A stretch of DNA of 41,829 bases from Candidatus Nomurabacteria bacterium (lineage in GTDB: Bacteria > Patescibacteriota > Minisyncoccia > Phycocordibacterales > UBA9973). The stretch lies in contig JARIGS010000016.1 in assembly GCA_029288725.1 (NCBI GenBank), positions 1 through 41,829 of the forward strand, given 5' to 3'. The notes under the pieces were generated by a model. The model was given only the letters and a program-made list of their open reading frames with translations, had not been told where the DNA came from and did no database searches. The position numbers and the translations under genes are program-made. This document shows positions 6,138 through 41,829 of the stretch, piece by piece (the first letter of the stretch is position 1; each line of letters opens with the position of its first letter).

Positions 6138-7355
6138 ATGAATGAACAGCCAAAACGGACCAGCATAGTAATTATCGGAGGAGGATTTGCCGGTATTGCG
6201 GCTGTTCGAAAGCTCCAAAAAAGTGGCCAGCCGATCGATATTACCATGGTCTCAAAAAGCCCAAATTTTCAGTATTATCCGAGCCTCTACCGTATGGTAG
6301 TGGGCGCATCAGTGAACCAGGTCTCAATCCCGCTCACCAAGATTGTTTCTCGGAACGTCCGTCTGGTGATCGATACGTATACGGGTGTCGATACACAACG
6401 TAAGGCCATAACCCTGCAAAGCGGTACGGAAATCTCATACGACTATCTCGTGATGGCATTGGGCAGTGAGCCGAATTATTTCGGCATCGATGGCATGGAA
6501 ACACATTCGAAAAGTTTCCTCTCAGTTGATAAGGCACGCGGACTCAATCAGTACTACAAATCATTGATTGGCAGTGCGAAGACGCTTCCTCGCGATGAAG
6601 CATTGATGAAATTGCGCACGATTATCGTTGGTGCCGGACCATCCGGTGTTGAGTTGGCAGGAGTGCTACGAGGCTACTTGGTGCAGGAGGCGAGACGGCA
6701 GAAGGTAGATCCTACGCTGATCAAGATTGATCTATTGGATTCTGGTCCGCGTGTCTTAGCTGCTATTCCAGAACGAGCATCTGCATTGGTTCGTGATCAG
6801 TTGCAGCGAAAGGGCGTGACTGTCTATTCGAACTACGGCGTTAATGCCTGCGATGAGAACTGTGTCATTGTGGCTGATAAGAACAATCCTGCGGCGCCTG
6901 TTGAAAACATCCACATGGAAGCTGGCACCGTTATATGGACGGCTGGTACAAAAATCAGTACTGCATTTGCTGCCATCCCCGGTGTTACTATGACTGATCG
7001 CAAGCGCGTAGTGGTTACGCCAACGCTAACCCTACCGACTGATGACACTCTCTACGTTGCGGGAGATGGATCGGGCACACCATATAGTGGCTTGGCCCAA
7101 ACCGCCATCGATCAAGGAGACTATGTCGCTGAGACATTGCTTCGCCGCATTGCAGGCAAGTCAGTGGCGCCTTACGAACCGAAGCAGGGTGTCTTTGTCA
7201 TTCCCGTGGGTAAGCATTGGGCTATCCTGAATTATAAGGATATCGTACTGTACGGATTTTTCCCATGGATATTGCGTATCATGATTGATGCACGATACTT
7301 CCTCAGTATTACCAGTCTGTGGAATGTCCTTGGGATGCTAAGAAATGAGTCATAG
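6138..7355 (+). CDS. NAD(P)/FAD-dependent oxidoreductase, type II NADH dehydrogenase-like
   Basis: IVIIGGGFAGIAAVRKL; IVGAGPSGVELAGVL; VIWTAGTKIS; LYVAGDGSG; hydrophobic C-terminus. Confidence 0.87.
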   Translation: MNEQPKRTSIVIIGGGFAGIAAVRKLQKSGQPIDITMVSKSPNFQYYPSLYRMVVGASVNQVSIPLTKIVSRNVRLVIDTYTGVDTQRKAITLQSGTEISYDYLVMALGSEPNYFGIDGMETHSKSFLSVDKARGLNQYYKSLIGSAKTLPRDEALMKLRTIIVGAGPSGVELAGVLRGYLVQEARRQKVDPTLIKIDLLDSGPRVLAAIPERASALVRDQLQRKGVTVYSNYGVNACDENCVIVADKNNPAAPVENIHMEAGTVIWTAGTKISTAFAAIPGVTMTDRKRVVVTPTLTLPTDDTLYVAGDGSGTPYSGLAQTAIDQGDYVAETLLRRIAGKSVAPYEPKQGVFVIPVGKHWAILNYKDIVLYGFFPWILRIMIDARYFLSITSLWNVLGMLRNES

Positions 7356-8121
7356 TATGAGTACGGATTGGAACAATGTTGCCCAGTGGTATGACCAGTA
7401 TCTAGTCGGGGAGGATACCTACCAGGCTCAGGTAATAGCGCCGAACCTTGTGCGATTGCTTGCTCCTCGTGCCGGACAGCGTATCTTGGACGTTGCGTGT
7501 GGTCAGGGATACTTCGCACGAATGTGCGCTGACAAAGGAGCACAGATTGTTGGCGTGGATCAGTCGACAACATTGATCGAAAAGGCCAAGGCTCAGGCTG
7601 GAGCAAACGAACTGTACATTACCGGTAATGCTGAAACGTTGGATGCCTATAAGATTGAACCGTGCGATACGGTCTTCTCAGTGCTTGCTTTGGAAAATAT
7701 TAAAAATATTGCTGGGGTAATGAGCGGCATACAGCAGGTGATGAAGCCTGATGGCAAGGTTGTCTTTGTACTTCTGCATCCTGCTTTTCGCATCCCCCAG
7801 CACAGTGACTGGGGCTATGACACCAAGCGGACAGTGCAGTATCGTCGGATAGATAAATATCTTTCGGAAGTAAATATTCAGATTGAGCTTGCGCCATTCA
7901 AGGGAAGTAAGGATGTGAAGAAAGTAACGACAACCACCTTCCATCGTTCACTGCAGTGGTATATGAAGGCATTTCGCAATGCCGGTTTTGCTATTACTAA
8001 CATTGAAGAATGGATTTCGCACAAGACCTCTCAGCCAGGACCTCGTCAGCATGCTGAGGACACTGCCCGCAAGGAAATCCCGATGTTTATGGCGATAGAG
8101 CTCAAGAAGATAGGCCAATAG
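7345..8121 (+). CDS. class I SAM-dependent methyltransferase
   Basis: ILDVACGQGYFARMCADKGAQIVGVDQS; overlaps the upstream oxidoreductase by 11 nt. Confidence 0.87.
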   Translation: MSHSMSTDWNNVAQWYDQYLVGEDTYQAQVIAPNLVRLLAPRAGQRILDVACGQGYFARMCADKGAQIVGVDQSTTLIEKAKAQAGANELYITGNAETLDAYKIEPCDTVFSVLALENIKNIAGVMSGIQQVMKPDGKVVFVLLHPAFRIPQHSDWGYDTKRTVQYRRIDKYLSEVNIQIELAPFKGSKDVKKVTTTTFHRSLQWYMKAFRNAGFAITNIEEWISHKTSQPGPRQHAEDTARKEIPMFMAIELKKIGQ

Positions 8122-8135
8122 ATAGGGCTGACTTT

Positions 8136-8203
8136 GGAAGATATGCAAAAATACGCCCTCCAACCCGACGGGCTTGTTCGGATCGTATTTTTGCATATCT
8201 TCC
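8136..8203. repeat. Hairpin 1: perfect 20-bp stem, 28-nt loop
   Basis: ggaagatatgcaaaaatacg (8136-8155) / cgtatttttgcatatcttcc (8184-8203); loop holds tccaacccgacgggcttgttc (8159-8179). Confidence 0.95.
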
Positions 8204-8240
8204 TCCGTCAGAACTATTTTAAATTTACAGTCTGGCGAAA

Positions 8241-8306
8241 AGCGCGCAGTGAAAATGTTTGCTGAACAAGCCCGTCGGGTTGGAAGAAACATTTTCACTG
8301 CGCGCT
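8241..8306. repeat. Hairpin 2: perfect 20-bp stem, 26-nt loop complementary to the loop of hairpin 1
   Basis: agcgcgcagtgaaaatgttt (8241-8260) / aaacattttcactgcgcgct (8287-8306); loop holds gaacaagcccgtcgggttgga (8264-8284), exact reverse complement of 8159-8179. Confidence 0.95.
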
Positions 8307-8316
8307 GAGAGTCACT

Positions 8317-8886
8317 CTACTCTTTAATTTTTTTCAGGGCCAAAGGAATCTTTTTAAAATCACTAAGCAATTCTTCGCGTAAGCCCCCGTTGTATAGCGC
8401 AGCAGCAGGGTGGTAGAGCGGAAGGAAGTAATTTGTTGGCATGCCGGCAATATTCTTTTTCAATAATTTCCCATGGACGACCGAAATTTTTTCGTCAGGA
8501 AAAAAGTTACTCATCGCAATGCGTCCGAGAAAGACGATGAGCTTCGGCTTGATCGCTACCAATTCTTCATGCAGCCATTCCTTGCACGCTTCCTTTTCTT
8601 CCGGCAGAGGATCGCGATTGTTCGGTGGGCGATACTTCACCATGTTAGTGATGTAAATATCCTCCCGCTGCATATTGATGCTTGCGAGCATTTCCGCTAG
8701 AAACTTTCCCGCTGCACCGACGAAAGGTCGTCCTTCGAGGTCTTCATTCTTGCCCGGCGCCTCACCGATAAATACTACCTCAGCATGAGGATTGCCATCA
8801 CCCGGTACTGCCTGTGTGGCCGTAGCTTTAAGCTCACAGGTACAATGCACTTTCCAGTATTCGTGTATTTCCGGTAGTGTTTTCAT
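8317..8886 (-). CDS. uracil-DNA glycosylase, family 4-like
   Basis: VPGDGNPHAEVVFIGEAPGKNEDLEGRPFVGAAGKFLAEML...ITNMVKYRPPNNRDP...YHPAAAL. Confidence 0.87.
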   Translation of the reverse strand: MKTLPEIHEYWKVHCTCELKATATQAVPGDGNPHAEVVFIGEAPGKNEDLEGRPFVGAAGKFLAEMLASINMQREDIYITNMVKYRPPNNRDPLPEEKEACKEWLHEELVAIKPKLIVFLGRIAMSNFFPDEKISVVHGKLLKKNIAGMPTNYFLPLYHPAAALYNGGLREELLSDFKKIPLALKKIKE

Positions 8887-33184: not shown

Positions 33185-33336
33185 ATAACTGAATAGTAGC
33201 CTAAACCAGCGAATAATCGCTGGCATGGCGAAGAAACCGCACGATACTAAAAACCCCATCAGTAGGGCGTATCGTGCGTCGCGTCTGGAAACGGACGTGT
33301 GGAGCTTCACGGCTTCTCCTAGTGATGGGCTTTTTC
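33185..33336 (+). ncRNA. candidate structured non-coding RNA
   Basis: Hairpins 33206-33212/33217-33223, 33238-33246/33270-33278, 33280-33287/33292-33299 (GAAA tetraloop); 33255-33266 pairs with 33318-33329 (11/12) before a CTTTTT tract. Confidence 0.5.
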
Positions 33337-41635: not shown

Positions 41636-41829
41636 CATGGGCCCTTAGCTCAGCTGGTAGAGCAGTGCTTTTGCAAAGCAAAGGTCAGGAGTTCGAATCT
41701 CCTAGGGTCCACAAAGAAAAAACCATTATCAGGAGATAATGGTTTTTTCTTTGTGGACCCTAGGAGATTCGAACTCCTGACCTTTGCTTTGCAAAAGCAC
41801 TGCTCTACCAGCTGAGCTAAGGGCCCATG
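41636..41829. repeat. perfect inverted repeat (95-nt arms, 4-nt centre) ending exactly at the contig terminus
   Basis: 41735-41829 is the exact reverse complement of 41636-41730; centre agga at 41731-41734. Confidence 0.95.
41639..41711 (+). tRNA. tRNA-Ala (TGC)
   Basis: Acceptor gggccct/agggtcc; anticodon arm tgctt-ttGCaaa context reading tTGCa; T-arm ggagttcgaatctcc. Confidence 0.93.

Follow-up and report, generated by a model that had tools for sequence, protein, structure and literature searches.

Two perfect hairpins lie between convergent genes in the window, a 41,829-nt stretch of a Candidatus Nomurabacteria contig, and their loops are complementary to one another. The locus raises the question of whether the two hairpins act jointly or each stands as a unit in its own right, and what such a unit would do at the end of a gene.

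Anatomy of the paired hairpins

The two stems (8136-8155/8184-8203 and 8241-8260/8287-8306) are each 20 bp long, 100% complementary and unrelated in sequence to one another, with 28 nt between the arms in copy 1 and 26 nt in copy 2. The loops carry 21-nt cores (8159-8179 and 8264-8284) that are exact reverse complements. Both features had been described in an earlier reading of the sequence alone and were confirmed. The parts of the locus are as follows.

8122..8217, plus strand: copy 1, whole rod, comprising outermost helix, outer helix, main stem and tip
8122-8125/8214-8217, plus strand: copy 1, outermost helix
8128-8132/8207-8211, plus strand: copy 1, outer helix, CTGAC paired with GTCAG
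8136..8155, plus strand: copy 1, 5' arm of the main stem, 20 bp of free sequence, with an A-tract at 8147-8151
8156..8183, plus strand: copy 1, conserved tip, 28 nt, with the core TCCAACCCGACGGGCTTGTTC at 8159-8179
8184..8203, plus strand: copy 1, 3' arm of the main stem, with a T-tract at 8188-8192
8206..8212, plus strand: copy 1, 3' foot CGTCAGA, approximately TTCGTCAGA, common to other copies
8231..8315, minus strand: copy 2, whole element, with feet at 8231-8240 and 8307-8315
8241..8260, minus strand: copy 2, 3' arm of the main stem in the minus-strand reading, 20 bp
8261..8286, minus strand: copy 2, conserved tip, 26 nt, with a core at 8264-8284 identical to that of copy 1
8287..8306, minus strand: copy 2, 5' arm of the main stem in the minus-strand reading
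7345..8121, plus strand: flanking methyltransferase gene (PF08241), stop codon 14 nt from the main stem of copy 1
8317..8886, minus strand: flanking convergent gene of the uracil-DNA glycosylase (UDG) superfamily (PF03167), stop codon 10 nt from the main stem of copy 2

The tip of copy 1 forms an apical helix, CAACCC-GAC-GGG(C)TTG, with one bulged C; the outer helix of copy 2 is imperfect. Pairing of the spacer had also been proposed, between CGTCAGA at 8205-8211 and TCTGGCG at 8231-8237. TCTGGCG is located there, but CGTCAGA is at 8206-8212, and the two motifs are the 3' feet of the two copies, complementary to each other because the copies stand in inverted arrangement.

Hairpins with arms of at least 14 bp number eight in the window, and those with arms of at least 18 bp number four. 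Since arms of at least 14 bp were absent from 12 random windows of the same composition (first-order Markov), the window hairpins are not due to chance. The RNA folding z-scores of the two hairpins were -8.3 and -7.9.

Elsewhere in the window, a LOOT RNA (RF03000) was detected at 33198-33316 with 80 bits. A 95-bp perfect inverted repeat with a tRNA in each arm occupies 41636-41829 at the contig end and is probably a fold-back assembly artefact; the same contig-end pattern was seen at positions 1-100 of contig C22.

A low-copy hairpin family with conserved tips and free stems

On contig C24 of the same genome (725 kb in 29 contigs, designated G000) another copy was found, the third, with an 18-bp stem unrelated to the first two; seven further copies, several of them single, were found in three Nomurabacteria genomes of the same genus. 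Thus, the search for the core and for the architecture with different stems that had been advised for related genomes was successful. The third copy and the single copies indicate that the repeating unit is one hairpin, and the window hairpins are two head-to-head (inverted) copies of one low-copy hairpin family rather than the composite A-b-A'...C-b'-C' unit suggested previously.

Covariance model (CM) matches of 74-84 bits were obtained in G000 (three), G002 (one intact and one cut by a contig end), G007 (one) and G009 (four), so that carriers hold 1-4 copies each. These four are the only carriers by CM among the 12 genomes of the genus, the assemblies of which are 81-98% complete; the remaining eight were without the element. 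The contig end in G002 falls within a copy, as repeats can cause. A collapsed or misassembled repeat, against which the sequence-only reading had cautioned, does not account for the element, since its recurrence in four assemblies shows that it is not a local misassembly.

Only weak CM matches, two of the order matches being in G193 and G218, were returned from samples of the order (397 genomes) and the class (384 genomes), scans in which strict filters were applied and divergent tips could be missed. The matches inspected outside the genus (G106, G107, G567 and G739) lack the core and resemble ordinary terminators, and were rejected, as was locus L004 of G123, where the core is matched with three mismatches but no stem is present. 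The phage and plasmid collections held no match to the element. Three core matches in IMG/VR were without a stem, and the two that were checked lay in coding regions of unrelated phages; these matches were therefore attributed to chance and a viral origin was rejected. Rfam 15 gave no match at the element above the gathering cut-off, and no relevant literature was found on LOOT RNA, Patescibacteria terminators, Nomurabacteria palindromes or structured RNAs. The element is rare and unlisted, and occurs in some members of a single Nomurabacteria genus.

Each copy is a hairpin of 64-68 nt composed of a free-sequence stem, an A/T tract at a fixed place and a conserved tip. The main stem is 18-20 bp long with the A/T tract near positions 11-15, and above it follow a two-base YY/RR helix, a small internal loop and a 6-bp apical helix (CAACCC-GAC-GGG-TTG) with a bulged C. 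The tip, about 26-28 nt long, has the approximate consensus YY-TCCAACCCGACGGGCTTGTTC-RR with one bulged base, and in divergent tips the changes in the apical helix are compensatory (CAA/TTG, GGA/TCC, GAA/TTC). A foot helix of the approximate form CTGAC(T)../..(TTC)GTCAGA forms in about six of the nine copies, the rest having an imperfect one. The opposite strand of the tip presents a GAN/GA internal loop in most copies, and in each of the eight members tested its fold is the more stable one.

Covariation, named in the sequence-only reading as a check, was strong. Across nine copies pairing was found in 94.8% of cells, with changes on both sides in 20 of 26 pairs, and the covariation score was 0.764, against 0.201 ± 0.031 for shuffled and 0.07-0.184 for slid controls, figures that lean towards the structure since it was drawn by hand from the same nine sequences. 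In the main stems of the eight good members, 142 of 144 pairs are Watson-Crick, two are mismatched and none is G-T; the ninth copy (L010b, at the G009 recG end), whose stem is partly degenerate, is outside this count. Mean pairwise identity was 31% in the outer stem, 82% in the A-tract and 86% in the core. The three copies of G000 have the core in common at 21 of 21 positions and the outer stem at one or two of 10. A search of the genome for the stem sequences gave, outside the arms, exact matches of at most 13 nt, so the stems were not copied from some other locus. A near-constant tip on an ever-different paired stem suggests that the tip is recognized and that the stem is needed only as pairing. 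The absence of G-T pairs may reflect a requirement that both strands be able to pair, whether as DNA or as an RNA element made in both directions, or else arm-to-arm copying.

A second cap family that follows the same logic of conserved cap and free stem was observed at C4:60660, C4:44160, C22:31104, C22:62040 and C4:159000 of G000 and at L101 and L102 (G006 and G010). The core has a hairpin, ATTTTTCTGCTGAAAAAT, and further helices, and the outer stems differ from copy to copy, with a length of 26 bp in G010.

Position at gene ends and weighing of explanations

The copies occupy five distinct settings at gene ends in four genomes, and the distance from stop codon to main stem is mostly 10-21 nt.

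Setting 1: methyltransferase/UDG, in G000
Setting 2: SET gene / small ORF-ruvC-ruvB, in G000
Setting 3: recA, in G002
Setting 4: recG/DUF4383 in G009, and recG in G002
Setting 5: adk-map, in G007 and G009

At the 3' end of recA the element is present in G002, while ordinary bidirectional terminator hairpins are present in G001, G004, G007 and G009 and a terminator-like hairpin in G000. The 3' end of recG has the element in G009 and G002 and ordinary bidirectional terminators in G005, G007 and G008. In G004, G005, G006 and G008 the UDG gene and the convergent methyltransferase gene abut; the gap of 195 nt between them in G000 is nearly all accounted for by the two hairpins. In the recG and adk-map settings the copies of two species carry different stems. 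The adk and map genes around their copies are co-directional, and the orientation of the tip relative to the neighboring gene is mixed. The comparison of sites supports a role at gene ends and likewise shows gain or loss of the element within the genus. Four of the five settings adjoin or are near genes of DNA repair or recombination (UDG, recA, recG, ruvB-ruvC), a lead noticed post hoc. Six copies of a structured repeat, about 80-130 nt long and dispersed, were also observed in G000 (L098 at C28:43200-43340, C22:62132, C4:54028, C27:25745, C19:72225 and C12:15560), one of them lying between adk and map; Rfam gave no match to the L098 copy.

The sequence-only reading proposed that the two hairpins act jointly through 21-nt loop-loop pairing, as a kissing loop or a double cruciform. 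The complementarity is exact in the window, as is to be expected where two family copies face each other, but single copies occur in three settings (contig C24 of G000, the recA end of G002 and the adk-map gap of G007), the recG pair of G009 has the opposite polarity, the loop regions of the adk-map pair of G009 are just 72% complementary, and the core is already paired within its own tip. Since loop-loop complementarity is not conserved as a pair in relatives, joint action was rejected and is given almost no credence. Nearly as improbable is a recombination site resembling attC, or a site recognized in the form of a DNA cruciform; a retained structure with free sequence and a bulged base is consistent with the former, and perfect Watson-Crick pairing fits DNA. 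However, no genome of the genus (0/12) has an integron integrase (TIGR02249) over the curated cut-off, the integrase matches being partial only and like those of control genomes, the foot (approximately CTGACT/TTCGTCAGA, read by eye) is without RYYYAAC/GTTRRRY boxes, and the copies are beside housekeeping genes and not cassettes. Both the attC and the kissing-loop readings are thereby largely excluded, while two other suggestions of the sequence-only reading, a dual terminator and a mobile palindromic element, are still in contention.

A non-autonomous mobile palindromic repeat (REP/MITE-like) inserting at gene ends is the main rival to a terminator, though on balance an unlikely one; it would perhaps be moved by a Y1 (IS200/RAYT-type) transposase reading tip and bulge in single-stranded DNA. 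Presence is patchy (four of 12 genus genomes), the abutting UDG and methyltransferase genes resemble empty sites, some copies form inverted pairs as BIMEs do, and the adk-map gap holds other structured repeats in other species. Copied elements should nevertheless bring their stems along, and the stems are unrelated even within one genome; no target duplication was seen. Y1_Tnp proteins are encoded in all four carriers, and the five genomes without Y1_Tnp are also without the element, but of the eight non-carriers three also encode Y1_Tnp, other palindromes adjoin two of the three such genes in G000, and the tip motif was absent from all Y1_Tnp surroundings searched in the genus. On C24, about 2 kb separate the Y1_Tnp gene from the element copy, and another palindrome is beside the gene. 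The co-occurrence with the transposase is suggestive, with no adjacency in the surroundings searched. Quite improbable is a regulatory or processing RNA in the 3'-UTR of DNA-repair genes, for example a site for RNase III or an RNA-binding protein, with termination as a side effect. The UDG, recA, recG and ruvB-ruvC neighbors are in its favor, as are the RNA-like tip, with its conserved bulge and opposite-strand internal loop, and the more stable folding of that strand. The pattern of neighbors is, however, drawn post hoc from five distinct settings, adk-map does not fit it, and the tip is oriented both ways relative to the repair gene.

The palindromes near the Y1_Tnp genes of G000 at C24:32643-33242 and C1:27871-28089 are of the GGGGTCTGACCCC and CTCTTGAGG types and recur at other places in the genome; these genes and palindromes look like REP-RAYT systems.

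A proposed two-way 3'-end element

The reading favored here, which we give an even chance of being correct, is that of a two-way terminator or 3'-end element with a tip recognized in trans. We infer termination, a binding partner and a cause of the perfect stem pairing in the following manner. Whichever side transcription comes from, the inner stem and the tip would fold while the T-tract is made, and the folded element could stop RNA polymerase in both directions, after which the long perfect stem would protect or mark the 3' end. The sequence of the tip would be retained because a trans-acting factor, a putative protein or RNA, binds it, the stem being retained as pairing alone. Selection for pairing in both strands, perhaps aided by template-switch copying between the arms, would keep the stems perfectly paired.

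The proximity to stop codons, in places occupied by terminators in relatives, is consistent with such an element, as is the lack of G-T pairs, which fits a need for both-strand pairing; the genome is also rich in ordinary bidirectional terminators with A-tract and T-tract. Against a terminator is the geometry. In a set of 104 perfect palindromes of G000 with loops of 3-8 nt, the 92 with an A-run of at least three have a median of 1 bp outside the A-run and 8 bp inside, whereas the element has 10-11 bp outside the A-tract and 1-5 inside before the tip (L010a fits for the second of its two A-runs), and a loop of 21-36 nt. The T-tract, 3-6 long and a few nt past the inner stem, is itself stem and continues into more pairs. 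The window hairpins were not called by a standard scan for consensus terminators. The fixed, deep position of the A-tract indicates a distinct design and not a terminator with a chance loop. The adk-map copies, between co-directional genes where termination is not obviously wanted, argue against a full stop. A wider proposal, rather doubtful at present, is that of a Patescibacteria element class in which a trans-acting factor would read a conserved tip on an arbitrary, strictly Watson-Crick stem as a two-way 3'-end signal for a few genes, several of them of DNA repair, and which would include the other capped, free, terminator-like stems of the same genomes.

Hairpins with a conserved tip and a free stem separate the needs for sequence (tip, A/T tract and foot) from the needs for pairing only, and thus present a natural experiment. 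If the element ends transcripts, it illustrates how 3' ends are built, and perhaps regulated, in a lineage whose genomes are very small, and the ordinary-terminator versions that related species carry at recA and recG permit a direct comparison. If mobile, it would be a palindromic element that acquires a new stem at each site, for which we know of no precedent.

Similarities with several known systems are evident. Integron attC sites are folded hairpins with free stem sequence and a conserved extrahelical base, and the element is likewise folded and free-stemmed with an extrahelical base; it differs in that conservation centers on the tip and not on R/L boxes of the foot, and in having no integron integrase. 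With REP/BIME sequences and their RAYT (Y1) transposases it has in common short intergenic palindromes, some inverted pairs and genomes bearing Y1_Tnp, but it is present at 1-4 copies per genome, is not beside a Y1_Tnp gene and, by eye, has no common GTAG-type foot. The stems also differ between copies, and in place of a palindrome conserved in sequence, as in REP/BIME, only tip, A-tract and foot are common. Strong covariation is shared with the structured RNA families of Rfam, most RNA-only examples of which, unlike the element, do not have a main stem entirely devoid of G-T pairs. Like bidirectional intrinsic (rho-independent) terminators, the element is a palindrome just past stop codons, with A-tract and T-tract in opposite arms, and is found at the same orthologous sites; it is distinguished from them by a structured, conserved tip of about 26-28 nt in place of a free loop of 3-8 nt, by an A/T tract 10-11 bp deep in the stem and by a conserved foot.
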